A stretch of DNA of 42,070 nt from the IMG/VR virus record IMGVR_UViG_3300046512_000370, positions 1 through 42,070 of that record; one strand, written 5' to 3'. This stretch comes from a virus. The position numbers were made by a program, and so were the translations under genes. The notes below the pieces were generated by a model. The model was not told the origin of the DNA, ran no database searches, and saw only the letters and a program-made list of their open reading frames with translations. Within the stretch, counting starts at the first letter, position 1. Every line of letters starts with the position of its first letter. Shown piece by piece: positions 3,295-39,975 of this stretch.

Positions 3295-3564
3295 CTAAGC
3301 TACTTTCCCCATAAGTTTCCTTTGCTCGATTGTGGACTTTTCACGCTGCCTGTCGATGTAATTCGCAAGGTCTCTCAGGTGTATCCCTAATGCGGCTTTC
3401 TGGCTCTCAGCCCCGAGGCGAACGATAGGGATATCAATTTCTCCGTCTAAACATTTTCGTTTGAATTTTTCGACGGTCAAGTTCATATAGTCAGCGCAGA
3501 CTATATCGAGAGGGATCACTGCGCGGCCTTCATATTGAGCCATTAATAGAAACAGAGTGTTCAT
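3295..3564 (-). CDS. PrtN-family (pyocin activator-like) regulator, distal copy
   Basis: This 89-residue protein resembles PrtN, the transcriptional activator of pyocin genes in Pseudomonas aeruginosa. Family signature seen: LFLLMAQYEGRAVIPLDIVC at the N-terminus, then LTVEKFKRKCLDGEI, IPIVRLGAESQKAALGIHL and DLANYID. It is the last gene of the leftward early operon, and its ATG overlaps the stop of the methyltransferase (ATGA). With a PrtR-like S24 repressor in the same prophage, the PrtR/PrtN pairing of pyocin loci is reproduced. The target promoters here are unknown. A second family member lies at 7181-7507. Confidence 0.85.
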   Translation of the reverse strand: MNTLFLLMAQYEGRAVIPLDIVCADYMNLTVEKFKRKCLDGEIDIPIVRLGAESQKAALGIHLRDLANYIDRQREKSTIEQRKLMGKVA

Positions 3565-5306
3565 GCTGCCTCTCCCATAAGCTCGGTGTGTTCTGTGTCT
3601 CTATTGGCGCTGATAAGTGCCATCATCGGCCACGGTGACACTGAGTTACCCACCATCAGCACCTGGGTCTTGTTGCTGAACTTCCGTCCGTCGTGCCCAC
3701 GGTCGATCACGTAGTTGTCGGGGAAGCCCTGCGCACGGTAAAGCTCGCGAGGGGTGAGCATGCGCATGCCGATGTCCACGATCACATACGGCGTGCCCTT
3801 GATCGCCACCGTGACAAGTGCAAGGCGGTCCCGAGTGGTGATGGTCGCGGCTGGGTTGCGCAGGTCGTAGGTGTTGTCGCTGCCGTAATAGCCCATCAGG
3901 AAGGCGGCGACACGCATAGCGCCGGCCTCGACCTCTGGAGCGAGCTTGTACTCAACCAGCGCGTGATGTTCGGCGCCGGCCGTAATGGTCGGCACCAGTT
4001 CGTCCATGCCCCTGCCTACGCAGTTCCTGCGAAGTGTCGATAGGTGCGCGGTGACGACTTGCTGCTGACTGCCTGTGGTTGTAATGGCTGTCAGGGGTTT
4101 TACAGGGTGATGCCCTGGCGTCTCGTTGTACCCGCCGTTGTGCTGTGCAACATAGGCTACGGCCGGCGCGAAGTGACCGCCTTTAACACCGCTGCAGATG
4201 GTGCGTAGGGGATCATCCCCCGGCATGTTGCGTTGGCTGCTGCCATTGGAATGTTCGGTGATGAAGGGCGCGAACTGGGGAGTTACCAGTGCAAAGCCCT
4301 GAGCGCCAGTGATGGTCTTTGCTGGGTCGTCCACAGATTGGCAGCGTGCCAGGTCGTTGCCTGTGTGGTTCACGCTGACGATGAACGGGTTCTTGTGCTC
4401 GATGACGTAGCGCTTGGCGCCTTTGCGCAGGCGCTCCATCGTGTTGGTCACCAGTGGTCGCTTGACGCCTGCAGCACGGCCTTCTTTCTTGGTAAGGAAA
4501 ATGCTCGGGCACGGGATCGACCAGTCGATGCAACTGGCGGCGGTTCGGTACGCAGATTGTCCCTTGCCTGGGTTCTTGAAGTGCGTCGGTTCCGGCCAGC
4601 GCAGCGGCTGTCCGTCACGACGTGCGATCAGGAACAAGCGCTCGCGGGTGGTCGCGGCGCCGAAGTCACAAGCCTTGAGTTTGCCGTATATCAGGTCGTA
4701 ACCCATGGACCGCAGGATGCTTTCGAAACGACGCCAGGTCTGTCCCTTGCGCTTTGGATCGGGCACCAGGTACTGATCCTGCACCGGGACACGCTCGCCG
4801 GCAGCGGCAATGGTCATATCCCGGCGAATCACTCGTCCAGTCTTGGTGCAGCGCTTTGCGATCAGTGGACCCCATTGAAGGATCTGCACGACGTTTTCCA
4901 TGGTGATCATGCGAGGGCTGGCTTGGCCTCCCCATTTAAGGATGACCCACGATTGGGAGCGGCTGGTGGTGCTGCGCGCCTGACCGCCGGCAGCAAGGCT
5001 GTGGTGGGTGCATTCAGGGCTGGCGTGCAGGTGGGCAACTGGGCGGCCGCGAGTTGCCACACGCGGGCACACGTCGTAAACATCGGTGATGTAGTGCTCG
5101 GCGCTTGGGTGGTTGCGCTTGTGCATGCTGATGGCGTCGGGGTTGTGGTTGATGGCGATGTCGACCGGCATGCCAGTGCCCATCTCCTGGCCCATGGTTG
5201 CGCCGCCGCCACCGGCGAAGAGGTCAACCCGGATCTCGCCGGCGAAGTCGAGGCCGAACTGGGTTTTGACGGCGGATGTGATTGGGGTTGGATTGAAGGC
5301 AGTCAT
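3561..5306 (-). CDS. Solitary C5-cytosine DNA methyltransferase
   Basis: The predicted reaction is transfer of a methyl group from SAM to cytosine C5 in DNA. From the ATG at 5306 the protein is 581 residues. Motif I is VDLFAGGGG (27-35). The catalytic cysteine is in ASPECTHHS (Cys 99), an SPEC form common in phage enzymes rather than the classic PCQ. MENV is motif VI, TTRERLFLIARR motif VIII, LTPRELYRAQGFP motif IX and LMVGNSVSP motif X. A long region between VIII and IX should hold the target-recognition domain. Start choice: the frame stays open upstream to 5501, but 5306 has a GGGAGCAAC ribosome site and overlaps the previous stop (ATGA). No restriction endonuclease lies beside it, so protection of phage DNA from host restriction is the likely use. 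Confidence 0.93.
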   Translation of the reverse strand: MTAFNPTPITSAVKTQFGLDFAGEIRVDLFAGGGGATMGQEMGTGMPVDIAINHNPDAISMHKRNHPSAEHYITDVYDVCPRVATRGRPVAHLHASPECTHHSLAAGGQARSTTSRSQSWVILKWGGQASPRMITMENVVQILQWGPLIAKRCTKTGRVIRRDMTIAAAGERVPVQDQYLVPDPKRKGQTWRRFESILRSMGYDLIYGKLKACDFGAATTRERLFLIARRDGQPLRWPEPTHFKNPGKGQSAYRTAASCIDWSIPCPSIFLTKKEGRAAGVKRPLVTNTMERLRKGAKRYVIEHKNPFIVSVNHTGNDLARCQSVDDPAKTITGAQGFALVTPQFAPFITEHSNGSSQRNMPGDDPLRTICSGVKGGHFAPAVAYVAQHNGGYNETPGHHPVKPLTAITTTGSQQQVVTAHLSTLRRNCVGRGMDELVPTITAGAEHHALVEYKLAPEVEAGAMRVAAFLMGYYGSDNTYDLRNPAATITTRDRLALVTVAIKGTPYVIVDIGMRMLTPRELYRAQGFPDNYVIDRGHDGRKFSNKTQVLMVGNSVSPWPMMALISANRDTEHTELMGEAA

Positions 5307-5980
5307 ACCCGTTGCTCCCTGACATACAGCGGATCCGCGCCAATGAACACTTCTTCCGGTGCCTCCGGCCACTCCTCGCGGATAGTGTCGAACTCTCCCT
5401 CGTTCCAGATTCGTAGGAAAGTCATGCCCTCTTCTGCAGAAAGAGCGAACTGGATTGCTGCTATCGATGACTCGTTGTCTGAATGACTGGCTGTACCACA
5501 AGGCGAGCGTGTGTAGAGCGGGACTTTGTATTTTGATACTGCTCCAGCGCGGACAACGGCGTGTCGATCTGTACCGCCTTGTATGTACTCAAGATCCTTC
5601 AGACCGATATGGCATATTGGCTTTGCATCGACCTGAGTCTCGTTGTGGGCTCCACTTGAATCGGTCAGACGGAACCCAGCTGCATGGATTCGCCCAGCGG
5701 TCCTACGGCCCACTCCCTGGATGCTCATCAACTCTTCGAGTTCGGCTTTATACCCCACGGCAGGCTGCGCGAGCGGGCGATCCTGAGCGTTTAGCGTTGC
5801 ATCAGCGAGCGCTGCCCCGCGCAGCTTTTCGTGGGGTATAAGTCCCTCGGCAGTGGCGCGGGAAGGAGCAATAATGCCTGCTGCTTTGCAGCAGAGACTG
5901 TTTGTTTCCAGCGTGTCGACGCCATCGGCGGTACGGAGCAAAGCGGACAGGGTTCCGGTGTTGTTCTGGATGTTCTTCAT
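5303..5980 (-). CDS. Conserved early phage protein, function unknown
   Basis: The product has 225 residues from the ATG at 5980, which has GGAGG nine to ten bases upstream and overlaps the stop of the HD-domain gene (ATGA). A farther upstream start would extend well into that gene and lacks support. A short stretch, IQGVGRRTAGRIHAAG (middle of the protein), looks like a helix-hairpin-helix DNA-binding turn. The C-terminal part, LSAEEGMTFLRIWNEGEFD to GADPLYVREQ, resembles a tail region I associate with small Pseudomonas phage proteins. No catalytic motif is evident. Its stop overlaps the methyltransferase start, so the two are probably translated together. Confidence 0.75.
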   Translation of the reverse strand: MKNIQNNTGTLSALLRTADGVDTLETNSLCCKAAGIIAPSRATAEGLIPHEKLRGAALADATLNAQDRPLAQPAVGYKAELEELMSIQGVGRRTAGRIHAAGFRLTDSSGAHNETQVDAKPICHIGLKDLEYIQGGTDRHAVVRAGAVSKYKVPLYTRSPCGTASHSDNESSIAAIQFALSAEEGMTFLRIWNEGEFDTIREEWPEAPEEVFIGADPLYVREQRV

Positions 5981-6519
5981 GCCGCTTTCCTCCGGTGTTC
6001 GATAGCGAGTTGGTCCATCAGGCGCTGGTGGTAGGTGTTGCGGGCTTCTATGGCAGGCCATGGGCGGATGGTTTCAGTCATGGGTTCGATGCCGACCAAA
6101 CAATCCCAGATAGCCGGATCGGTTGGCATGAGGTCGCGGCGTTCGGTCGCCAGCGCAATCATGTCGGCCTGGTGGATGCAGTCCGGGAGGTCGAGGGCCA
6201 GGTCGAAGCGTTCGCAAACGCGCTCCCAGATGACATCCTCGAAGTGCCGGTAGGCAGAAAGCCACTGCTTTAGCGGTCGGGTCATGTCGCCCAGGTATGC
6301 CTCGGGGGCGTCGTGGAGCAAGGCTGCGAGCTTGTGTTCTTCCGGCACCAACTCGGCGACGATGCAGCTGTGTTGGGCCACGCTGTAGAACTCGCGTGTA
6401 TGGCCGTTGAATCGACACAGGTGGGCCAGCGAGTGCGAGATGTCCCGTGGGTCGATCATGTCAGCGTCGGGCTCGAACAGGTCGAAGCGCTTGCCGGTGG
6501 AGGTGAGGATCCAGTTCAT
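5977..6519 (-). CDS. HD-domain phosphohydrolase (YfbR-like)
   Basis: The family contains metal-dependent nucleotidases, including 5'-deoxynucleotidase YfbR. The product is 180 residues from the ATG at 6519, which has GTGAGGAAAG upstream and overlaps the preceding stop. Metal ligands fit the HD pattern: His 50 in SVAQHS, His69-Asp70 in ALLHDAPEA, and a later Asp in HQADMIALATE. DMTRPLK after the HD motif is also typical. Inference: it adjusts the nucleotide pool during phage replication. It is annotated only by family; substrate specificity cannot be read from the sequence. Confidence 0.9.
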   Translation of the reverse strand: MNWILTSTGKRFDLFEPDADMIDPRDISHSLAHLCRFNGHTREFYSVAQHSCIVAELVPEEHKLAALLHDAPEAYLGDMTRPLKQWLSAYRHFEDVIWERVCERFDLALDLPDCIHQADMIALATERRDLMPTDPAIWDCLVGIEPMTETIRPWPAIEARNTYHQRLMDQLAIEHRRKAA

Positions 6520-7180: not shown

Positions 7181-7507
7181 TTACTGGTCTTGCTCGGTTG
7201 AGTCGTTTTGTGGCCGAGGCATGTCTTCGTCCGCTCGGTAAGCGCGGATGTCGATCAGTGCTGCGACGTGTTTGATGTGGGCATACCGGATCGCCTTGAC
7301 GCTGTGGTCCAGGGTGGTCACCGGCAACTGAATACGCCCGTTGGCGATTGCCTCGGTGAAGGTCTTTTCGTTGAGGTTCTTGAAGTAATGCACGCGCAGC
7401 TTTTCCAGGGGGATAAGCACGTCGCCGAAGAGTTGGTGCAGCATCTCGACGGTGGCACTATCCGGGGCGGGTAGCAGTCGTAGCGGTGTCTGGCTGTTGT
7501 TGCTCAT
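7181..7507 (-). CDS. PrtN-family regulator, proximal copy
   Basis: A 108-residue second member of the PrtN (pyocin activator) family. The core runs MLHQLFGDVLIPLEKL, YFKNLNEKTFTEAI, GRIQLPVTTLDHSVKA and IKHVAALIDIRA, matching the PrtN arrangement of a conserved I/VPLD-E segment, an EKF/EKTF helix and a sequence ending in a KA-rich helix. Start: the ATG at 7507 has GGAGG nine bases upstream; the open frame to 7555 lacks one. It overlaps the preceding 72-residue gene by about 50 bp. It differs clearly from the copy at 3295-3564, so this is an old duplication or two separate acquisitions. Confidence 0.78.
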   Translation of the reverse strand: MSNNSQTPLRLLPAPDSATVEMLHQLFGDVLIPLEKLRVHYFKNLNEKTFTEAIANGRIQLPVTTLDHSVKAIRYAHIKHVAALIDIRAYRADEDMPRPQNDSTEQDQ

Positions 7508-7676
7508 GGGCTGCGGCCTCCTTGCGTTTGAGTCGTGAAGGGTGGTTCCAAGCATTCAGGCAATGGCGTTTGGTCAGCTCCCGCAGATGCTCCGGCACTT
7601 CGAGGAGCGCAGCGTTGCGCTCCTCGCGTGTGCTCATGGCGACGATCTGGCGGGCGTACTCTCTAGGCCACGTCAC
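7458..7676 (-). CDS. Small conserved phage protein, function unknown
   Basis: A 72-residue basic protein starting with GTG (7676). Its core WPREYARQIVAM and REERNAALLEVPEHLRELTKRHC is a pattern I associate with small proteins in Pseudomonas prophage early operons. It overlaps the upstream gene end by 14 bp and the downstream start by about 50 bp, in keeping with the packed operon. The predicted helices suggest a nucleic-acid or protein-binding role, but no motif allows a function. Confidence 0.65.
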   Translation of the reverse strand: MTWPREYARQIVAMSTREERNAALLEVPEHLRELTKRHCLNAWNHPSRLKRKEAAAHEQQQPDTATTATRPG

Positions 7677-8930: not shown

Positions 8931-10283
8931 ATGATTAATAGTTGCAAGTTTCGAGGCGAAGAACTGAAATTTCATTTGGGTGATGTTTGTAATTACGAAA
9001 ATATATTTACTATTGTGGTGGGTCGGAATGGGGCTGGCAAAAGCCTTTTGTTACGCCAGTTGATAAGGTCATTTGTTTCTGTACCTGAGCCCTCACAAGA
9101 TAGGCCTTTACTTAGACGCGAATGGTCGGAGGATGCGGGATCAGTCCGTTTTAATCTGCAGCCGACGAAAATTATTGCATCGTCTACTAGCCCTTTTGAC
9201 AAGTTTCCAATTGATAGAAGGGGGGAGTTTGCCAGCCAGTATGAATACGTTGGGCTGAAAGGGCTCTCTGGTCAGAACCTAAGTCTAGGGTACATGGCGA
9301 GGATTATAAGTAAGTTGTTGCGGTCGATTAATAAGGACGTTGGTCGTCTAAAAGCTATCATGAATGTGTTTTCTTACATGGGTTATCACGGGTTTATGCA
9401 GGTTAGGCTAGCTATGGATCCGTCGCCTACGGTAATGCATGAGATTTTACAGTCTGAGGACCCTAAGGGAGCGCTATTTAGTTTTTTAAATGCTCGCTAC
9501 AGAAAGGGAGCACCCTTCAATCAAAAATTTAATTACGAAGGGATTGCTGATCGAGCGGACGAAATTCTTGATGCGTTCTATTATTTTTCATTGATTAGTT
9601 TAAAACCGCGATTGGACGTCGTGATTGATGAGACTGGTGTGTTTGAAATAAATTTGGGAAACTCGGTCGATGACCGATTTTTATGTCTACTTGAATTAGG
9701 GTTTATTAGGCTTCGTGATATTACATTGCAGAAAATAGGCGTGCAGAGTCCAATTAGGATAACTGACGCAAGCTCGGGTGAGCAATGCGTTTTATTGGCT
9801 CTTTTAGGGATAGCAAGTCATATTGAGGATGGTGCATTAATATGCATAGATGAGCCGGAGGTTTGCCTTCATCCTGAGTGGCAAGAAAGATTTATCGGAT
9901 TATTGATAGATTCATTTCGTGATTTTAAATGCTGTCATTTTATTGTTGCCACGCATTCGCCTCAAGTGGTTTCAAATTTGAGTAATGACAATTGTTATGT
10001 GCTTGATATTCAGAGGGGACTTACTGTAGATGCTCGTGCATTAAATAATAGGTCTGCGGACTTTCAGTTGGCGAGCGTTTTTGGTGCTCCTGGATATAAA
10101 AATGAATATCTCACACGTGAGCTTATAAGTGCGCTAGGTACGCTAAGTGGTGGATTTGATCTGAGTAAGGAACGTATGGATGTGCTGGCTAGAATCATTA
10201 GTTTGAGAGGTTATTTGAGGCCGCACGATCCCGTTGTTAAATTGATAGATCTTCTGAGTGACGCTCTTAGCGAGGTTCAGTAA
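8931..10283 (+). CDS. ptuA: AAA/SMC-like ATPase, PtuA-like subunit of a Septu-type defence system
   Basis: A 450-residue ATPase. Walker A is GRNGAGKS (31-38). The ABC-type signature is SSGEQ (about 281). Walker B is ICIDEPEVCLHPEW (about 305-318), followed by VATHSPQ (about 340). This is the OLD/RecF-like AAA arrangement. It is coupled by a TAATG overlap to an HNH nuclease gene. This two-gene layout is that of Septu (PtuA/PtuB), an anti-phage system also found with some retrons. The gene is clearly more AT-rich than the phage core, as in acquired cargo. An AAGGA ribosome site lies six bases before the ATG. Caution: other AAA+HNH pairs exist, so the Septu name is by architecture. Confidence 0.82.
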   Translation: MINSCKFRGEELKFHLGDVCNYENIFTIVVGRNGAGKSLLLRQLIRSFVSVPEPSQDRPLLRREWSEDAGSVRFNLQPTKIIASSTSPFDKFPIDRRGEFASQYEYVGLKGLSGQNLSLGYMARIISKLLRSINKDVGRLKAIMNVFSYMGYHGFMQVRLAMDPSPTVMHEILQSEDPKGALFSFLNARYRKGAPFNQKFNYEGIADRADEILDAFYYFSLISLKPRLDVVIDETGVFEINLGNSVDDRFLCLLELGFIRLRDITLQKIGVQSPIRITDASSGEQCVLLALLGIASHIEDGALICIDEPEVCLHPEWQERFIGLLIDSFRDFKCCHFIVATHSPQVVSNLSNDNCYVLDIQRGLTVDARALNNRSADFQLASVFGAPGYKNEYLTRELISALGTLSGGFDLSKERMDVLARIISLRGYLRPHDPVVKLIDLLSDALSEVQ

Positions 10284-10999
10284 TGAGCTTGGAGCAGTCG
10301 CAGTTTAAAATAAATAGGCCATATGCGTACTCTATTAAGCATGTTTCTTTGGTTGAGGACTTTAAGAGGATGCAGCGTCAGGAACAGGTGGGCTTCTGGG
10401 ATAATACTAATAAAGGAGTGTGGAAGATAATAAAGAAAAGTCTGAAGGATCACTATATTGTTGCTCAAGATTATCAGTGTGCTTTTTGTTTGCAGAGGAA
10501 TGTGGTTGAGCATAATGGGGTTTGGGATGCTGAACACATAATACCAAAGGCTACACACCCCCACTTCATGTTTGAAAGTCAAAATCTCTGTGTGAGTTGT
10601 AAGGATTGTAATGGCGCTAAATTAGATAAGCCTGTGACTAAGGCAAAAGTGAAGGATGAGTTTTCGACCGAGTCCGATGACTACTTGATTTGCCATCCTC
10701 ACTTTGATGAGTATTCTGCACACATAAATGTCATCAGTGTGGCGGGTGTGTATTTGCCAAAAACGGATAAGGGTAGGCGTCTCATAGAGACTTGTGGGTT
10801 GCTACGGTTTTTGTATAAGTACTCCAATCATGAATGTGCCAGTGAAGAGATAAAGGCGCGAACAGTTCAGCTAAATAATCAACTTCTTGAGGCGGCGAGT
10901 GAGCTTGAGCTGATGTATATCTATGATTGTCTCGAGGATCTGGCAAAGGAGGGAAAGAGATTATTAAGGCAGAAGCGAATGGCTGCGTTAAAGGCATAG
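10283..10999 (+). CDS. ptuB: HNH endonuclease, PtuB-like subunit of a Septu-type defence system
   Basis: A 238-residue HNH nuclease. Zinc and catalytic positions are visible: CAFC (66-69), then WDAEHIIPKA (81-90) with the Glu-His pair, and NLCVSCKDCNGAKLDKP (101-117) with Cys and Asn ligands. This matches the HNH family found as PtuB. The ATG overlaps the stop of the ATPase gene (TAATG), so the proteins are likely made in fixed ratio and form a complex. Inference: the ATPase senses infection and licenses nuclease attack on DNA. The gene is AT-rich and ends 15 bp from the convergent repressor gene, with no obvious terminator between. Confidence 0.85.
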   Translation: MSLEQSQFKINRPYAYSIKHVSLVEDFKRMQRQEQVGFWDNTNKGVWKIIKKSLKDHYIVAQDYQCAFCLQRNVVEHNGVWDAEHIIPKATHPHFMFESQNLCVSCKDCNGAKLDKPVTKAKVKDEFSTESDDYLICHPHFDEYSAHINVISVAGVYLPKTDKGRRLIETCGLLRFLYKYSNHECASEEIKARTVQLNNQLLEAASELELMYIYDCLEDLAKEGKRLLRQKRMAALKA

Positions 11000-11013: not shown

Positions 11014-11739
11014 TTACTCTGGAATAAATGAACCGACTACTTTTCCACATATGTGTGTTTCTTCCGTAATATCAATGATTGGGTATTGCGGATTGATCGG
11101 CCTTAAAAATTGTCTGCCTGCGTCCGCCACCAAAATCTTAAATGTAGCTTCATTGGTCCGGGGAACCCTCGCGATCACTCGATCACCTGTCTTCGTTTCA
11201 GCCTCAGGATCCACAAAAATAATGCACCCCGTAGGATAGCTGCGACCTGGCCCTGGATTCGTCATAGAGTCACCAAGTACCTTCAGCGCATAACCGCTCT
11301 CGCTGATAGGCACAGGGCACGACAGCCATGATTCGCCGTCATGCTGCTCAAAATTCGACTCGCACCATGCGCCTGCCTGTACCCACGAAATCAGTGGGAC
11401 TTTTCCAAAGCGTCGAGTGATCTCTCGGACATTACTTTCGCCTGCTTTATCGAACTGGTGGACATTACTGTCCCCGGTCTGCTCTTTAGGTAGCACACCA
11501 TATTCCAGCCACTCCCTACGCACCTTCAACCATGAACACAGCACAACCATGCTGTCCGCCTCAGGTATGGATTCGCCATTCAGCCACTTGCTGATGGCCT
11601 GAGTACTTTTTTTACCCCCAACCTTCACAAGATGGGCGTGAATATCCACCCCACGTCCCCGGGTGCGTACACCGGCATCGTCGAGTGCTTCGTGAAGGCG
11701 CGCCGTGAAAGCTGCCCGTAGCTCGTTCTTATCAACCAT
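11014..11739 (-). CDS. cI: LexA/CI-like (PrtR-type) prophage repressor with S24 peptidase domain
   Basis: This 241-residue repressor maintains lysogeny. The N-terminal DNA-binding domain includes STQAISKWLNGESIPEADS (about 45-63), a helix-turn-helix of the XRE type. The C-terminal S24 domain has the self-cleavage site Ala122-Gly123 (WVQAGAW), catalytic Ser158 in LGDSMTNP and Lys201 in EATFKIL. RecA-stimulated autocleavage after DNA damage is therefore expected. With the PrtN-like genes, the closest functional analogue is PrtR. Its start codon lies inside an operator (11731-11747), which suggests autoregulation. Confidence 0.94.
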   Translation of the reverse strand: MVDKNELRAAFTARLHEALDDAGVRTRGRGVDIHAHLVKVGGKKSTQAISKWLNGESIPEADSMVVLCSWLKVRREWLEYGVLPKEQTGDSNVHQFDKAGESNVREITRRFGKVPLISWVQAGAWCESNFEQHDGESWLSCPVPISESGYALKVLGDSMTNPGPGRSYPTGCIIFVDPEAETKTGDRVIARVPRTNEATFKILVADAGRQFLRPINPQYPIIDITEETHICGKVVGSFIPE

Positions 11740-32762: not shown

Positions 32763-35294
32763 ATGGCAAATAACCTGGCGCTCGGCCTGGTCATCGGCGG
32801 CGTCGTCAGCTCCACGGTCGGCGCCGCCTTCAAGGACGTTGAGGGCCGTATCAAGAAACTCGGCGAAACCGGCACTAAGGCCCGTGTGCTGCAGAGCACC
32901 ATCGGCGACACCATCCGCCTGCGGGATGAATGGAAGAAGGCTCATGACACCGGTGCTGCGTCGGCTGACGGTCTGTTGCGAAAACTGGAAGGCAACCTCA
33001 AAACCCTGAAAGAGCAGGGCATTGAGGTCAGCAAGTTGCGCAAGGAATACCAGGCCCTCGGCCAGGTAGCGCGTGGCGCCGAACTCAAGGCGCTGGGCCA
33101 CACGCAGATTCAGCAGGGCAAAGAAGGAATGAAAAACTCCCTCGGCCAGGCGGCGGTGCTCACCGGCGCGTTGGCGATCCCGACGAAGATCTCCGGTGAT
33201 TACCAGGCGCAGGTCCGCCAAATGTCGTTGTGGGCTCACACGGCCGGCACCGGCGATGAGGCGGAGCTGGCAGCCAGCATCAGCAAGGTCGCGGCTGAGA
33301 AGGGTATGAGCCAGCAACTGTTGGCACAGTCGGTGGGTGCCTTGATTGAAAAAGGCGTTGATTGGGATGTGGCCACCTCCTATGCCGGGCAGATCGCGGA
33401 CCTGATCGACGGTCAGGGCATGGAGCCCGAAACCATCGCGACCCTGATCAACTCCTTTAAGGAAGCCGGCGTAAAGCAGGGTGACATGGCGGCCATGCTT
33501 GGGCAGGTGGCAGCAGCGGGTGACATCGGTGCGTTTGGTCCGAAGGAAATGGCGAAGTACCTGCCGGCGATGCTTGGCAATATCAAGCGCCTGGGCATGG
33601 AAGGCCCCGAGGCGGTGCGCTTCCTCGGTGCCAGCCTGCAGTCGCAGTTCTCGCAAACCCAGGACTCGGCGGCAGCAGCCACCAACATGAACAACCTGCT
33701 CAACGCGGTGATCAGCAGCACCAGCCAGGAGCGGTTTGCCAAGGAAGGCTACGACCTAACCGGCTCGATCCTCGCCGCGACTAAAAGCGGCAAGGCGGCG
33801 AACCCGGTCGACGCGTTCATCATGCTCAGCGAGCAGTTGATCAAGAGGCAGGATCCGGCCAAGGCCAAGAAGATCGAGGCGCTGAAGGCCAAGATCAAGG
33901 GCTCGGTCGATGGTAGCGCGGAGGAAGCACAGGCCATGGTCGCGCTGACTGAGGCGGCGGGGTTGGCGACGATTGTCAGCGATCAGAGTGCTAGTGCGGG
34001 TTTGCTTGCGCAGATCAAATATGGCGACAAGATTAAGGCTGACATGTCGGTGATCAACGGCACGGATGGCAAGGCCAAGATTGAAGCGGATGCGGCGAAG
34101 GCGCGGGAGGCTTCGAACCGCAGATGGCAGGCAGCTACCAACGCGATGGAAGCTTCGATGATCAGTATCGGTGACGCAATCCGTCCACTGACCGACATGG
34201 CCGCTGATGGCCTCGGGAAGCTTGGTTATGCGTTGGCAGATTTGGGAGAGAAGTACAAACCGGTTGTTGCCGGCGCAGCGCTTTTAGCGACAGGACTCGT
34301 CACCTTAGGGGGCGTGATGAGTGCGTACAAGATGGGCAAGGGAATGCTCAATGTTGCCCGTGGGTCGATGATGGGAAACCCCAACATTCCTCAAAAAGTG
34401 ATCGTGACCAACATGCCTGTCGGTGGGCTCGACGGTGGCGGACTGGATGGGCAGGGTAAAAAAGGTCGTCGAGGTAAAGGCCGTAAAGGGAGGGGCGGTC
34501 GTGTACCCGTTCCAAGTGCTGCCCCGACTGCGCCGGTTGCAGCCGCTACCAACCGATTCGCGCCTAAGACCATGATGGGCAAGGGGCTTGGATTCACCAA
34601 GGTCGGCGCGCCCATGGCTCTGATCGAGGCCGGGTTGATTGCAGCTGACACTTATCAAAACGCCGAGACCCGCGACGAAAAAGCCGAGGGTTACGGTAAT
34701 GCCGCTGGCACGTTGGCCGGGACATTGGCTGGTGCTGCAGCTGGGGCCGCGATTGGTTCCGTTGTCCCAGTGATCGGCACCGTGGTCGGTGGATTGATCG
34801 GCGGTTTCCTTGGCAGCTGGGGCGGCGGTGAGCTGGGCAGTGTAGTTGGCAAGGCAGCTTTCGGTGGGCCTGATGCACCGGCCGAGCGATTGGTATTGCC
34901 GGCTCAGCCTTCGCCATTGCGATTGCCGCCACCTGCTGCATCGCCTATGCCGCGCTTGGCGCAGATGGCGCCGCCGTTAGCGGCAGGTCCACTGATGCTC
35001 AGGGCGCCCGCTGCACCAGGGCCAGCCTTGGGCGACGTGTCGCGCTCGTTGGCGTCTGCTTCACCAGCGGTACTCGCTCCTGCCTTGCTCAGCGCAGGGC
35101 ATGCCGCGAAGCCGGAGCCGGCGCGTGTTGATCAGCAGTGGACCTTCGCCCCGACCATGCCGGTGACGGTACAGGGCGATGTAAAAGATCCACGACAGTT
35201 GGCGCAGGAAATGATGCCGTACTTGCGCCAGATGTTCGAGGAATTCAGCAGGGAGCAGGCGCGGCGCAATCTGTTCGATGCGCCGCATGTCTGA
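32763..35294 (+). CDS. T: Tail tape measure protein, P2 gpT-like
   Basis: The 843-residue protein sets tail length and may aid DNA entry. N-terminal 150 residues are coiled coil (FKDVEGRIKKLGETG and onward). KISGDYQAQVRQMSLWAHTAG and a long region of helices follow. Membrane-active Gly/Ala-rich segments are seen near about 485-500 (VVAGAALLATGLVTLGG) and 650-690 (GTLAGAAAGAAIGSVVP, GLIGGFLGSWGGG). The C-terminal 150 residues are Pro/Ala-rich with a final helix. GAG precedes the ATG. It is downstream of the E/E' chaperones, the invariant order. Confidence 0.95.
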   Translation: MANNLALGLVIGGVVSSTVGAAFKDVEGRIKKLGETGTKARVLQSTIGDTIRLRDEWKKAHDTGAASADGLLRKLEGNLKTLKEQGIEVSKLRKEYQALGQVARGAELKALGHTQIQQGKEGMKNSLGQAAVLTGALAIPTKISGDYQAQVRQMSLWAHTAGTGDEAELAASISKVAAEKGMSQQLLAQSVGALIEKGVDWDVATSYAGQIADLIDGQGMEPETIATLINSFKEAGVKQGDMAAMLGQVAAAGDIGAFGPKEMAKYLPAMLGNIKRLGMEGPEAVRFLGASLQSQFSQTQDSAAAATNMNNLLNAVISSTSQERFAKEGYDLTGSILAATKSGKAANPVDAFIMLSEQLIKRQDPAKAKKIEALKAKIKGSVDGSAEEAQAMVALTEAAGLATIVSDQSASAGLLAQIKYGDKIKADMSVINGTDGKAKIEADAAKAREASNRRWQAATNAMEASMISIGDAIRPLTDMAADGLGKLGYALADLGEKYKPVVAGAALLATGLVTLGGVMSAYKMGKGMLNVARGSMMGNPNIPQKVIVTNMPVGGLDGGGLDGQGKKGRRGKGRKGRGGRVPVPSAAPTAPVAAATNRFAPKTMMGKGLGFTKVGAPMALIEAGLIAADTYQNAETRDEKAEGYGNAAGTLAGTLAGAAAGAAIGSVVPVIGTVVGGLIGGFLGSWGGGELGSVVGKAAFGGPDAPAERLVLPAQPSPLRLPPPAASPMPRLAQMAPPLAAGPLMLRAPAAPGPALGDVSRSLASASPAVLAPALLSAGHAAKPEPARVDQQWTFAPTMPVTVQGDVKDPRQLAQEMMPYLRQMFEEFSREQARRNLFDAPHV

Positions 35295-35303
35295 GGGGAT
35301 TAT

Positions 35304-35777
35304 CTACTCAGCGGCGTCCGTTGGTGGGAAAGGCGTGCCATAGCGTAGATGGTCGATCACTGCACCTTGTGTAGTTTCAAGGTCTCGTTCGAACTCTACG
35401 CCGTTCTTCAATTCATTCAGGCGGTAAAGACTCACAAGGGCATATCCGTCCTTACCTTTGGAGGCCCGCGCGATCTTGACCGCTTTCAAGTCAGTGCCGA
35501 GCGCTCCCATCCACCAGGTGCTTGCAAGTGGTGTATTGAAGAACAACGAGCCGGACGACAGCAGGTACTTTTTCTCATCCATCAGATAGTTGTAGCCAGC
35601 GACTCCATTTTTCTCATGGGGAAGCAGGCTAATACCGAGTGAATCGACATGCACGCGATTGACTGCGTAGTGCCATCCACGCAGGAACTCACCGTCGAAC
35701 ATTTCTTCGTGCGACACCCAAACCCGTGCGGCTTTTTTTGGCTTGATAGCACCGATCTCTACTTCATGTACTGACAT
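35304..35777 (-). CDS. Protein of unknown function in the regulatory insert
   Basis: A 157-residue soluble protein, first seen 10 bp after the tape measure stop on the opposite strand. ATG 35777 has AAGGAG five bases upstream; a GTG at 35783 lies within that ribosome site. Trp/Tyr-rich stretches (ARVWVSHEEMFDGEFLRGWHYA, ASTWWMGALGTDLKAVKIA) suggest a compact alpha/beta fold. No motif recognised. It is transcribed with the Arc-like gene (35801), so it is probably expressed in the lysogen or under Arc control. Confidence 0.72.
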   Translation of the reverse strand: MSVHEVEIGAIKPKKAARVWVSHEEMFDGEFLRGWHYAVNRVHVDSLGISLLPHEKNGVAGYNYLMDEKKYLLSSGSLFFNTPLASTWWMGALGTDLKAVKIARASKGKDGYALVSLYRLNELKNGVEFERDLETTQGAVIDHLRYGTPFPPTDAAE

Positions 35778-35800
35778 CACCACTCCTTGGTAAAGCGAAG

Positions 35801-36151
35801 CTATTTTTCAGAGGCAGGCTTCACTAGCTGGCTTTGAAGGCGCTCGAAGGCTGTGTTGATGGTGCGCTCGATCCGATCTTCCAGGGCAGACAACCCCATG
35901 GGGTTTCCCAGGTCGAGTGCATCCATAGTGTTTTCTTTATCTTCCAGATACTTCAGGTAGCGCAGTACATGGGCGTTGTTTTCATCGCCCATTGTTCGTG
36001 CGCCCATGTGTTCATCCAGGGCAATGGTCGTTTCGAGTCGTGCAACAAGTTCAGCGTTTACCGAACGACGGTTTCGGTCTGCTGCGGCCTTGAGCTGCTC
36101 GTAAAGGGGGTAGGGGAACCGGAATTGAGACCGGTAAGTATCTTCGTTCAT
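35801..36151 (-). CDS. Arc-family ribbon-helix-helix repressor (long form)
   Basis: A 116-residue regulator. Residues about 6-42 hold an Arc/Mnt-type ribbon-helix-helix: YRSQFRFPYPLYEQLKAAADRNRRSVNAELVARLE, with QFRF as the DNA-contacting strand (segment described in pieces: QFRFPYPLYEQLK, then RSVNAELVARLE). The C-terminal part is a helical oligomerisation tail. Its start codon sits beside TGTCACTA half-sites (36151-36169), so self-repression is likely. It is divergent from a second, short Arc-like gene, recalling mnt and arc of phage P22. Confidence 0.87.
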   Translation of the reverse strand: MNEDTYRSQFRFPYPLYEQLKAAADRNRRSVNAELVARLETTIALDEHMGARTMGDENNAHVLRYLKYLEDKENTMDALDLGNPMGLSALEDRIERTINTAFERLQSQLVKPASEK

Positions 36152-36204
36152 GTCACTAGATTGACACTAAGATAAAGCATTCGTATAGTGACACTGTGTC
36201 ACTA
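36151..36204. promoter_or_regulatory. Arc-type operator region between the divergent repressor genes
   Basis: TAGTGACACTGTGTCACTA (36186-36204) is a perfect 19-bp palindrome. TGTCACTA (36151-36158) and TGACACTA (36162-36169) are related half-sites at the other promoter. The spacing leaves room for promoters in both directions. Confidence 0.75.
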
Positions 36205-36217
36205 AAGAGGATTAAGC

Positions 36218-36358
36218 ATGGCAGCTGTCGCACGGACACAGGTGAGGATCCCAGTGGATCTGATGGACTGGCTGAAGCAGAGGGCAAGAGAGGAAAACCG
36301 CTCTATGAACGCCCAGTTGATTGAGCTGCTCAAGCAGGCACGGAAGCAATCGGAATGA
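36218..36358 (+). CDS. Short Arc-family repressor
   Basis: A 46-residue ribbon-helix-helix protein: RTQVRIPVDLMDWLKQRA is the strand and first helix, ENRSMNAQLIELLKQA the second helix. Length is that of P22 Arc (53). AGAGG precedes the ATG at 36218, which lies 14 bp after the 19-bp palindrome. It is followed by a terminator-like hairpin and then the BRO-N gene, the arc-then-ant order of P22. Confidence 0.85.
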   Translation: MAAVARTQVRIPVDLMDWLKQRAREENRSMNAQLIELLKQARKQSE

Positions 36359-36375
36359 TTGTGCTCTGAAAAAGA

Positions 36376-36407
36376 AAAAGCCCCGACGCGGCAACGTCAG
36401 GGCTTTT
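36376..36407 (+). terminator. Terminator/attenuator between Arc-like and BRO-N genes
   Basis: AAAAGCCC (36376-36383), C, GACG, loop, CGTC (36395-36398), A, GGGCTTTT (36400-36407). A long stem ending in TTTT, 35 bp before the BRO-N start. It would lower read-through into the antirepressor-like gene. Confidence 0.75.
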
Positions 36408-36442
36408 GGGAACAACGTCGTCATTTTGAGGAAGAAAACGTC

Positions 36443-37414
36443 ATGGGCAATGCTACCGCAATTCCTACAGAAAACAATGTTCAGCCTCGGGCCTGCCAGG
36501 TCATACCGTTTCGTTTTGAAGAGAGCGAAGTGCGGACCTTGGTGGTGGATGATAAACCGTGGTTCTGTGCATCGGATGTTTGCTCGGTGCTGGGTTATCA
36601 AAATTCAGCTGATGCGATCAAAAAGCACTGTTTGGCATCTGGTATAGCGAAACGCGAGATGAGGTCTGGAGGGCAGTTCAGAACTTATTCGATTATCAAT
36701 GAGGGCAACCTGTACCGCTTGATCTGCAAAAGTCGTAAGCCCGAGGCTATGCGTTTCGAGCAGATGCTAATGGACGAGATTCTACCGACTATACGTAAAA
36801 CGGGTCGCTATGAAGCGCCGGGCTCTATCAGCGCTAATACCCTTCAACGTGTCTTCCAGGGCAGGCAGGTGTTCTTCGTCCTCCGTGACGGAAAGGTATG
36901 GGTTAGTGCTGCGAACGTGTGTTCGGCTTTGGGGATCGGTTCTTCCATAAAGCTGATTCGAAACCTGCCAGAGCATCAGCAATGTCGTTTCTTCAGAGGG
37001 ACGATGAACCTGGTGATGATTGACGTGGCCGGTGCGCTTCAGGCGGTTGATTTTTGCCAAGCGGAGTTGGCAGATGAATATCGTCGCTGGATGAATGGAG
37101 TTCAAGCCGAGATGCTTAGCACCGACACGAGCGTTTCCAGCATCGCCCAGGCGCATGACCTCTACTTGCCACAGCCGGAGATCACTGAAAAGGAGCGAGC
37201 CGCTCGACAAAGCCTGTCGATGACACGGTTCCTATGTCACCACGACTGTGACGGAAAGATCGTTATGCGCGAAATTCCAAACAACGCAGTAATCATCGGT
37301 ATGGATCGACTTGCGGGGTTTGTTGCCGATCCACATGGTGTGCCATTGGACATCGCGTGGGACATCTTTGAAGCCGCCGGCAGACGAATCAAGTCTGCTC
37401 AGTTAACCCGTTGA
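36443..37414 (+). CDS. BRO-N domain antirepressor-like protein
   Basis: A 323-residue protein. Residues about 15-125 form a BRO-N domain: VIPFRFEESEVRTLVVDDKPWF, ASDVCSVLGYQNSADAIKKHC, and LICKSRKPEAMRFEQMLMDEILPTIRKTGRY. Residues about 133-225 look like a second, divergent copy (VFFVLRDGKVWVSAANVCSALGI, then QAELADEYRRWM). BRO-N is the family of phage antirepressors such as those replacing P22 Ant. ATG 36443 has GAGGAAG upstream; a longer frame to 36359 lies within the terminator. With two flanking Arc-type repressors it fits an immI-like switch. Confidence 0.85.
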   Translation: MGNATAIPTENNVQPRACQVIPFRFEESEVRTLVVDDKPWFCASDVCSVLGYQNSADAIKKHCLASGIAKREMRSGGQFRTYSIINEGNLYRLICKSRKPEAMRFEQMLMDEILPTIRKTGRYEAPGSISANTLQRVFQGRQVFFVLRDGKVWVSAANVCSALGIGSSIKLIRNLPEHQQCRFFRGTMNLVMIDVAGALQAVDFCQAELADEYRRWMNGVQAEMLSTDTSVSSIAQAHDLYLPQPEITEKERAARQSLSMTRFLCHHDCDGKIVMREIPNNAVIIGMDRLAGFVADPHGVPLDIAWDIFEAAGRRIKSAQLTR

Positions 37415-37424
37415 AGGGCTTCCC

Positions 37425-38270
37425 ATGACATATATGGAGCAATTGCAGGCCGGCTTCAAATCCCTGGTCAAGGCCGGGGAGGCTGGCCGGCACAGCATTG
37501 ACGACATGATCGGCCCGGTGAACGGTGCGATCAGCGAGATCACCGGGGCGGCTGAGGAGATCGCGAGCTTGCCGGGCGTGCCACCCGAGGTTGGCGCAAA
37601 GCTGCAGCGTGTCATGCGCGGGATCGGTGCAGCTCAATCCAAAGTCGGGACGGTGCTGGCAACCTACAACAAAGCGACCCGAACGATGTCAGGCATTGAT
37701 GAGCGAATGGGCACGCTCAAGGAACAAGCATACCGCGCCGGGACGGCAATCAACCAAGTTGCCGGGAAGGTCGATCCCCGGCTGGCGAACATCTTGCCCA
37801 CCAGTGCCCTCGCGCCCAGTGCCACGCCGATGGCGGAAGCGGTCAAACCGTTTCCGCATCTGCTGATCTTGCAGCCGCTGCAAACTAATGCGCAGCCGTT
37901 CTACTTCAACCTGGACACGGCAGCGTTCGACGAACTTCGGCGGCAGACCGAGTTTCGCTGGGCCTCGCAAGAGCGCCTCAGCCGTCGGCCGGCGCAGCAG
38001 GCCGTGGGGATGGGAGAGGAAAAACTCATTCTCAAGGGCGCTATTTTTCCGGCGTTCAAGGGTGGGCTCAAACAATTGGATACCTTGCGCTCCATCGGCG
38101 CCCAGTTGCTGCCGTTGAACCTGACCACCGGCTACGGTTTTGTACTGGGCACCTGGTGCTTACGTAGCCTGGAGGAAGAGCAGGGCGCGCTGCTGGCGGG
38201 CGGGATCCCTCGCAAACAAACCTTTAGCCTGGAGTTCACGCGCTATGGCGATGATATGCAGAACGTCTGA
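37425..38270 (+). CDS. U: Tail protein U (P2 gpU), with N-terminal extension
   Basis: A 281-residue protein. The last 140 residues (PHLLILQPLQTNAQPFYFNLDTAAFDELRRQ and EEKLILKGAIFPAFKG, then TFSLEFTRYGDD) match P2 gpU, a tail-terminator or completion protein. The first 140 residues form a helical extension (IDDMIGPVNGAISEITGAAEE and onward) also found in gpU of many Pseudomonas prophages. GAAGGG precedes the ATG. The BRO-N gene stops 10 bp earlier, so the insert is tightly fitted. Confidence 0.9.
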   Translation: MTYMEQLQAGFKSLVKAGEAGRHSIDDMIGPVNGAISEITGAAEEIASLPGVPPEVGAKLQRVMRGIGAAQSKVGTVLATYNKATRTMSGIDERMGTLKEQAYRAGTAINQVAGKVDPRLANILPTSALAPSATPMAEAVKPFPHLLILQPLQTNAQPFYFNLDTAAFDELRRQTEFRWASQERLSRRPAQQAVGMGEEKLILKGAIFPAFKGGLKQLDTLRSIGAQLLPLNLTTGYGFVLGTWCLRSLEEEQGALLAGGIPRKQTFSLEFTRYGDDMQNV

Positions 38271-38451
38271 CGGCGACCTGCTCGACACCCTGTGTTATCA
38301 GCATTACGGCCACCTCAATGGCACGGTCGAGGCGGTGCTAGCGGCCAACCGCTTGCTGGCGGATGAGCCGCAACCGTTGCGCACAGGGCTGTTGATCACC
38401 TTCCCCGACATTGAGCAGTCGGTGGTCGAACAAGTGCAGCTCTGGGATTGA
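38245..38451 (+). CDS. X: Tail protein X (P2 gpX), LysM-like
   Basis: A 68-residue protein in the gpX position. It begins within the last codons of gpU (ATG 38245, with GGAG about ten bases upstream) and shows RTSDGDLLDTLCYQHYGHLNGTVEAVLAANRLLAD, then a short LITFPDI strand, the LysM-like pattern of gpX. A frame open from 38140 is a shadow of gpU. Confidence 0.9.
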   Translation: MAMICRTSDGDLLDTLCYQHYGHLNGTVEAVLAANRLLADEPQPLRTGLLITFPDIEQSVVEQVQLWD

Positions 38452-38452
38452 T

Positions 38453-38824
38453 TCAGCCCTGTGTTTGCAAGGCTTTGGACTGTGCAATCAGGGCTTGCCC
38501 CAGGTCGTTTAACAGCTCAGGAAGCTTGTCTTTATGGAAGAACATGTCTGTTTCGTTGCTTTTGTAGCCTGGTAGGTTTTCTCCGTACTTACCGCCGGCT
38601 TCCGACAGGATTGCGAAGGTGCGCACTGCATCACTGGCAGATGATTTTCGGGTGCCGTCAGTGATGTAGCCAAAAGCACGCATCAGATCAAAAAGCGTGG
38701 CCGATTTGAACGAGCACCCAACGGCGCTCAGCACATCTTTCGCGGGTAGCAACCCGCCTGCGTTCTCGACTTGAAGTTGCTTCCACGTTTTGCGAACCGG
38801 TTTTGCTGGCTGTTCAGTCGTCAT
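38453..38824 (-). CDS. Small protein inserted between gpX and gpD, function unknown
   Basis: A 123-residue soluble protein on the opposite strand, starting at ATG 38824 with AGGAG nine bases upstream; farther starts to 38896 overlap palindromic DNA. LLPAKDVLSAVGCSFKSATLFDLMRAFGYI looks like a winged-helix or helix-turn-helix core, so it may bind DNA. The end is helical. It ends one base after the gpX stop. Function not recognised; a lysogeny-expressed cargo gene is plausible. Confidence 0.68.
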   Translation of the reverse strand: MTTEQPAKPVRKTWKQLQVENAGGLLPAKDVLSAVGCSFKSATLFDLMRAFGYITDGTRKSSASDAVRTFAILSEAGGKYGENLPGYKSNETDMFFHKDKLPELLNDLGQALIAQSKALQTQG

Positions 38825-38844
38825 ATCCCTTGCTCCTGTCATTG

Positions 38845-38869
38845 ATCCATTTGATGGATTCTTATCCAT
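38845..38869. promoter_or_regulatory. ATCCAT/ATGGAT palindrome before the inserted gene
   Basis: ATCCATTTGATGGAT (38845-38859) is a 15-bp palindrome, followed by another ATCCAT at 38864-38869. It lies at the promoter position of the leftward gene at 38453-38824 and may be its operator. Confidence 0.5.
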
Positions 38870-38931
38870 TGCTATAGCCAATCGCAAGTTCTGCACGCGA
38901 GGCCCGTGTGCGGGGGCTTACAGGATTTTTT

Positions 38932-39975
38932 ATGAAACCAATTTTTCGAATTGTTGCTGACGGCTCTGACATTACAGCGCTGATCAACGACCGCCTGCTG
39001 TTGCTGCGCACCCTCGACAAACCCGGCATGGAGTCGGACGAATTCGAGCTACGCATCGATGATCGTGATGGTGCCGTCGCGCTCCCCAAAAAGGGCGCCG
39101 GGATCGAGGTATACCTCGGTTACGACAGCAAAGCACTGACCCGCGTGGGCCGTTACACCGTCGACGACATCGAGGTCTCCGGCCCGCCCGACACCCTGGT
39201 TATTCGCGGCAAGGCCAGCGACATGCGCGGCAGCGGCAAGACCACCCGCAGCGGTAGCTGGGAAAACGTACCGCTGTCCAAGATCGTCAGCGACATTGCT
39301 GCACGTAATGGTTGGAAACCCGAATGCACGGTCGCCACGGTCGTACCTCGGGCTGACCAGTTGAACGAATCGGACTACAACTTCATCACCCGGCTCGCCA
39401 AAGGCTACGACTGCACAGCCAAGGTCGCCGACAGCAAGCTGCTGGTGCTGCCTCGCCAAAGCGGGCAGACCGCCAGCGGCAAGAGCCAGCCGGCGATCAC
39501 CCTCCGGCGCAGCGACGTCAGCCGTTGGCAATTCCGCTTCCCCGACCGCACCACCCAGAAGGCCGTCAAGGCCAAGTACCAGGACAAGAAAACCGGCGAA
39601 CTTGTCAACCTGACCCTGGACAACGACGACGCGCCGGCAGGTTTACCGCCGGTTCATACCGACCGTCACATCCACCCGAACAAATCCGCCGCCGAACAGG
39701 CCGTGAAGGCCCGGCTCGCCGCGTTCAACCGCTCGACCGCCGAGGTGCGGCTGGAGATGGTGGGGCGCACGGACCTGTTTGCAGAGCGGCAGATCAACGC
39801 GCAGGGCTTCAAGGACGGATTGGACGGGGAGTTCCTGGTCGACTCCGTGGAGCAGGTGTTCACCCAGTCCGGCTGGAGCACCACGGTCGAGTGCAACGCA
39901 GGGAAGAAGGGCAAGGCCAAGGCGGCCGGCAAGAAAAAGAAGAAGTCCAAGGAGGTCAAAGTCCTGGAGCTGTAA
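38932..39975 (+). CDS. D: Tail protein D (P2 gpD, late control/tail hub)
   Basis: A 347-residue protein. FRIVADGSDITALINDRLLLLRTLDKPG and EFELRIDDRDGAVALP, then PRADQLNESDYNFITRLAKGYDCTAKVADSKL are typical of gpD, the baseplate hub of P2-type tails. The C-terminus is strongly basic (KKGKAKAAGKKKKKSKE). ATG 38932 is preceded by AGGATTTTTT; an open frame to 38908 lacks a ribosome site. Full family length. Confidence 0.94.
   Translation: MKPIFRIVADGSDITALINDRLLLLRTLDKPGMESDEFELRIDDRDGAVALPKKGAGIEVYLGYDSKALTRVGRYTVDDIEVSGPPDTLVIRGKASDMRGSGKTTRSGSWENVPLSKIVSDIAARNGWKPECTVATVVPRADQLNESDYNFITRLAKGYDCTAKVADSKLLVLPRQSGQTASGKSQPAITLRRSDVSRWQFRFPDRTTQKAVKAKYQDKKTGELVNLTLDNDDAPAGLPPVHTDRHIHPNKSAAEQAVKARLAAFNRSTAEVRLEMVGRTDLFAERQINAQGFKDGLDGEFLVDSVEQVFTQSGWSTTVECNAGKKGKAKAAGKKKKKSKEVKVLEL

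Follow-up and report, generated by a model that had tools for sequence, protein, structure and literature searches.

The window, that is, the whole stretch of 42,070 nucleotides analysed here (IMG/VR record IMGVR_UViG_3300046512_000370), is a Pseudomonas-type temperate phage that carries a genetic switch between two of its tail genes, the tape measure gene (stop at 35294) and gpU (start at 37425). This insert (35295-37424) comprises a 159-aa gene (minus strand, 35304-35783), the divergent genes for the ribbon-helix-helix (RHH) repressors Arc1 (minus strand, 35801-36151) and Arc2 (plus strand, 36218-36358), and the antirepressor-like BRO gene ant (plus strand, 36443-37414). Of the 194 relatives retrieved by a gpU scan, the 80 best contigs were examined, and the spacing between tape measure stop and gpU start could be determined in all but one. 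In 78 of these 79 tails the two genes are separated by 8-34 nt, most often 9 or 12, compared with 2130 nt in the window, and 35295-37424 is a clean insertion at the tape measure/gpU junction, as an earlier note on this DNA had claimed. The insert is lower in GC content (0.518) than the remainder of the window (0.585). The sole exception among the measurable tails (L033), with 775 nt at the junction, holds a different insert with a lone AntA-type antirepressor gene (5350-5985) and no Arc genes, so that antirepressor genes have come to occupy this junction at least twice. A second insertion hotspot lies between gpU/X and the hub gene D, where many close relatives have a gap of about 200 nt and others one of 640-2548 nt; in the window it measures 664 nt (38271-38934) and contains a gene on the minus strand (38453-38824) for which tblastn gave no match among the fetched loci (L003-L083).

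Both Arc-like proteins lie above the Pfam Arc cut-off of 20.4 bits (Arc1, 116 aa, 29.3 bits; Arc2, 46 aa, 32.2 bits), bearing out the divergent Arc-family pair of the earlier note, and they occupy the places of P22 Mnt and P22 Arc, respectively. Their PDB matches are weak, those of the pair being to Arc and Mnt, and those of Arc1 to pArc, AmrZ and Mnt. The RSQFR strand of Arc1 is invariant among nine aligned Arc1 proteins. By alignment with P22 Arc, the residues R, Q and R are predicted to contact the bases in Arc1 and in most Arc2 proteins, so that Arc1 and Arc2 may both read one half-site. A different Arc2 strand is nevertheless found with the same operator in L097, L126, L128 and L130, and also in L084 (read from DNA). 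The 159-aa gene lies 17 nt behind Arc1 on the same strand; it has no match in Pfam, PHROGs, PADLOC, NCBIfam, phages, plasmids or viral contigs, and the AlphaFold model of its product (pLDDT 36.8) gives no lead from structure. In many related cassettes a further gene likewise follows Arc1 on the strand of Arc1; those compared are mostly unrelated to each other, apart from two related pairs, and none is a relative of the 159-aa gene. The extra gene that the earlier note placed at 35304 is therefore present, with no family match, but is not peculiar to this locus: it fills a variable cargo slot, which in many other cassettes is taken by unrelated genes.

The ant gene, whose likely start is 36443, encodes a 323-aa protein with a Bro-N match (PF02498) of 96.6 bits (cut-off 25.6). 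The domain occurs in tandem (aa about 17-125 and 128-225), and PHROGs assigns the protein to anti-repressor families of phages, in agreement with the downstream BRO-N antirepressor-like gene described earlier. Its P22_AR_N match (20.1 bits) falls below the cut-off of 30.7. The structure model is confident for the first Bro-N domain only. A C-terminal domain is common to the window Ant and the lone antirepressor of L033 (34% over aa 137-318); a search with this domain returned only the L033 contig again, and close relatives of the window Ant were not found in viral contigs.

The region between the Arc genes contains a Pant-like promoter, TTGACA-17-TATAGT (plus strand, 36161-36189; 11/12 match), the only sigma70-like site found in 34300-38960 by a strict scan, and one that is conserved in the 28 cassettes described below. 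It is overlapped by putative operators, as at P22 Pant: operator A (36152-36169), with half-sites GTCACTA (36152) and GACACTA (36163), and operator B (36186-36204), the palindrome TAGTGACACTGTGTCACTA. The half-site TAGTGAC, exact or with one base changed, occurs four times in one or the other orientation, with starts at 36152, 36163, 36186 and 36198. Two of these overlap the -35 and -10 boxes, and the two outer ones, which are not explained by the promoter hexamers, are conserved in most of the 28 aligned cassettes. The 19-bp palindrome, which had also been reported by the earlier note, is exact around one central base. It was rejected as evidence by itself, since the window holds 13 rows of palindromes of the same class, two of them nested in 36186-36204; in shuffles of the 66-nt intergenic region, such a palindrome arises in 44 of 5000. 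That it is real is indicated by the alignment of the 28 cassettes, in which it is conserved throughout, although a few carry variants. A pattern scan of the plus strand found no terminator-like site after ant up to 38960, and with none between ant and gpU, transcription from Pant might extend into the tail genes.

Related cassettes were sought with an Arc1 profile (31 viral loci), with the operator pattern (eight viral contigs and seven genome contigs, including L092 and L094, which look like chance) and with a second operator pattern (26 viral contigs, 25 of which are, by contig name, Arc cassettes already found). In 369 genomes from the class of one Halomonas genome, the operator pattern occurs once, in that same genome, and is thus rare and specific. 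Loci removed as duplicates or near-duplicates were L086, L089-L091, L101-L105, L112, L115, L116, L118 and L120, and those removed as re-fetched contigs were L132-L138 and L140-L149. L127 (decayed operator, no Arc2 seen) was left out, as were L092, L094, L131 and L139 (the last from the second operator pattern), which were set down to chance, with no Arc gene in the stretches inspected. The resulting set consists of 28 distinct cassettes with a hairpin and an ant start, which have the same layout in otherwise different phages and prophages: the window, Pseudomonas phage PS-1, three named genomes (two Halomonas, one Comamonas) and 23 further viral contigs. The ant starts were chosen by eye, and the hairpin positions of L108 and L125 were likewise set by eye. 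L093 contributes to the RNA counts but not to the effector scan, since the reading frame that follows the ant start selected for it spans only 86 aa. Two Paraburkholderia loci left out of the 28 (L095 and L098) retain Arc1, the operator and a frame resembling Arc2, but in the stretch inspected neither a hairpin nor ant follows this frame; they may be cassettes that have decayed or been repurposed.

Flanking genes were scanned for part of the cassettes (10 of 28 upstream, 8 of 25 downstream). The upstream neighbours are tail, connector or virion proteins in seven of ten cases and of unknown function in three, while the downstream neighbours are the tape measure or baseplate hub in six of eight, with one Rha-like protein and one without a match. 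Together with the site in PS-1, these neighbours show that the cassette occupies several different places in tail operons. The effectors also differ: among 27 ant proteins (E<=0.001), the domains are Bro-N in 13, P22_AR_N in six (including the weak match of the window Ant), KilA-N in four, AntA in three and ORF6N in one. Five effector domain types thus stand behind one control part, which is more conserved than its effector.

The control part also includes a terminator hairpin directly behind arc2 (minus strand, 36376-36407), consisting of a 14-pair stem followed by TCTTTTTC. This hairpin and a candidate antisense promoter inside ant (TTGTTT-16-TAGCAT; minus strand, 36450-36477) belong to a predicted sar-like antisense RNA (minus strand, 36368-36443) that would cover the ant ribosome-binding site. 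Among 4227 Rfam families, sar (RF00262) is the best here, matching over its full length with 27.1 bits (E 0.0043), a score below the gathering score of 43 and compared with 97.8 bits for the P22 control. A model built from the arc-ant region of the 28 aligned cassettes with P22 left out (R1) recovers P22 sar at 46.1 bits (E 1.7e-9), with 21.8 for the runner-up. In the two Halomonas genomes R1 scores the cassettes at 77.5 and 50.3 bits (next 25.9), and in 856 kb of window and tail loci it scores the window at 64.1 bits (best other 29.5), all three being themselves members of R1. In the alignment of the 28 cassettes the terminator stem comprises 12 pairs, of which nine show changes on both sides; 96.1% of the cells are paired, and covariation is 0.631, compared with 0.273 in shuffled alignments and at most 0.209 with partners slid. 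The position of the antisense promoter is conserved in all cassettes, and the predicted start falls at the ant start codon. The promoter of the window is among the weakest of the set (TAGCAT; 7/12 with the -35 box, a weak consensus) and is absent from the strict scan. The predicted window RNA folds at -28.5 kcal/mol (z -4.66), its first hairpin exposing the complement of the ribosome-binding site; across the set this 5' hairpin is a trend (mean z -1.37; p<=0.05 in 8 of 29). The geometry and the finding of P22 sar by R1 suggest that an antisense sar element probably lies between arc and ant, from which we infer an antisense transcript.

The closest known kind of system is the classical immI of phage P22 (mnt, arc, sar and ant), the ‘ant moron’ of P22-like phages. 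Common to both are the divergent RHH repressors, operators overlapping Pant and an arc-ant operon. In the P22 record, sar is a 70-nt antisense RNA with its promoter inside ant and its terminator directly after arc, a geometry that is repeated in the window. The mnt-arc-ant plan proposed by the earlier note is accordingly supported, and is extended by the operators on the ant promoter, the arc-ant operon and the sar-like element. The tail-operon site was likewise confirmed, but not as a departure from P22, whose immI is, according to PMC2629481, itself part of the late operon, with genes 16 and 9 on either side. In both phages the switch stands beside variable extra genes. Several features do differ. 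The window has a tandem Bro-N effector, whereas P22 Ant belongs to the P22_AR_N family; the window operator is made of TAGTGAC half-sites, which are missing from the differing P22 operator sites; both window repressors may read one half-site, unlike those of P22 immI; a terminator is annotated after ant in P22, while none was found in the window; and the window cassette, unlike immI, lies between the tape measure and gpU of a contractile-type tail. In Pseudomonas phage PS-1 (NC_029066), gp66-gp68 show the same operator region, Arc1, Arc2, hairpin and antisense leader, with an AntA-type effector carrying ORF6C in place of the tandem Bro-N protein; this cassette lies just upstream of the tape measure gene, and the record does not call it immI. 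The TF-smORF modules of linear plasmid-like phages, as outlined in PMC10432266, likewise place a regulator beside a repressor-disabling gene and provide a route apart from DNA damage, but consist of a transcription activator and a tiny protein rather than RHH repressors and a 323-aa effector. In the openly licensed literature (titles and abstract openings), no description of the cassette and none of a sar-like RNA outside P22-like phages was found, which is weak evidence of novelty.

Taken together, the insert is quite probably an ‘ant moron’ of the immI type, an antirepressor switch that is complete in itself and lies within the tail operon. In the lysogen, Arc1 would be expressed from the minus strand together with the 159-aa cargo, and its binding to the TAGTGAC half-sites at the -35 and -10 boxes would hold Pant, and with it arc2-ant, silent. 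The ant ribosome-binding site would be masked by a short antisense transcript running from the ant start codon to the intergenic hairpin, and translation of leak transcripts would thereby be blocked. When the phage enters a cell lacking Arc1, or when Arc1 is lost, Pant would fire and Ant would inactivate the CI-like repressor, after which Arc2 would close Pant again, limiting the burst of Ant after infection. The presumed target is the phage's own repressor (minus strand, 11014-11739), which carries an S24/LexA-type peptidase domain. As this repressor is LexA/S24-type, an SOS-based induction route probably exists alongside the switch, which, as the earlier note suggested, may influence superinfection or induction and may itself be independent of SOS. 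Next to the repressor gene lies a Septu-like defence pair (plus strand, 8931-10999), with a PtuA ATPase (PADLOC E 7.5e-129) and a PtuB HNH protein (3e-72). Elsewhere in the window, two genes match the pyocin activator PrtN family (3295-3564 and 7181-7555, both minus strand), and an early-region gene matches a C-5 cytosine DNA methylase (3561-5501, minus strand).

The antisense part of this scheme has a distinctly improbable competitor, in which the arc2-ant hairpin does no more than attenuate or terminate the sense transcript, the AT-richness of the ant leader serves translation, and no antisense RNA is made. Terminator stems can serve both strands, and generic terminators reach the 29.5 bits noted above with R1. 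The hairpin tail, however, contains more T on the antisense than on the sense side in 28 of 29 cases, comprising all 28 cassettes with P22 as the exception (3 vs 4), with a mean T content in 10 positions of 6.83 on the antisense side and a poor 2.76 on the sense side, which argues against a mere sense-strand terminator. A backward-pointing -10-like hexamer lies 4-9 nt inside every ant start. Chance -10 boxes do arise in AT-rich leaders, and by scores devised after the sequences were seen, the relevant -10 level is reached by 11 of 114 other genes of the same loci, compared with all 28 ants (those of the 27 cassettes other than the window, plus P22); the next higher promoter score, by contrast, is reached by 27 of these 28 ants and by none of the 114 genes. 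In the first promoter scoring, 20 of 29 leaders have p<=0.05 against synonymous recoding, and the antisense -10 signature is present in 23 of 23 thinned leaders, where 7.0 would be expected and 2000 synonymous recodings never gave more than 13. The recovery of P22 sar by R1 also speaks for an antisense RNA.

The insert could also be a moron under RHH control, with a Bro-N protein directed at a different resident prophage or at promoters of the host instead of at the phage's own CI. Bro-N is a DNA-binding domain family, and the five effector domain types found under one operator may have different targets. Trans-acting prophage antirepressors have moreover been described for Salmonella, according to PMC3121763. 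This reading is nevertheless judged unlikely: the window effector falls in anti-repressor families of phages, and the circuit matches that of P22, whose Ant acts on the phage's own repressor among others, as stated in PMC11016777. The same source reports that immI deletion in P22 lowers lysogeny. Very improbable indeed is a toxin-antitoxin system or a decayed remnant in place of a working switch. RHH proteins are common as antitoxins, Arc2 stands just at the FitA-like cut-off (27 of 27 bits), and decay does happen, as the Paraburkholderia loci L095 and L098, with no hairpin or ant in the stretch inspected, may illustrate; but all reading frames of the window cassette are open, its effector is of an antirepressor family, its control signals are conserved, and PADLOC returned nothing for the 159-aa gene.

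Across phages that otherwise differ, hardly any change is seen in the operator or in the DNA-binding strand of Arc1, so that Arc1 of one prophage could silence ant of another phage. It is tentatively proposed, with somewhat less than even confidence, that the cassette is a transferable plug-in that accepts any of at least five antirepressor domain types and many tail-operon sites, and whose Arc1 silences the ant genes of incoming phages of the same club. If true, its carriers would share a second immunity regardless of their primary repressor type. The section of PMC2629481 that compares immI variability covers P22-like phages only, and asks why the moron has a single place there. Here a circuit of the immI kind, together with its antisense RNA signature, occurs with other effectors and in several positions within tail operons. 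This opens to testing both the reason for the late-operon location of such switches and the existence of a second immunity group common to phages whose primary repressors differ.
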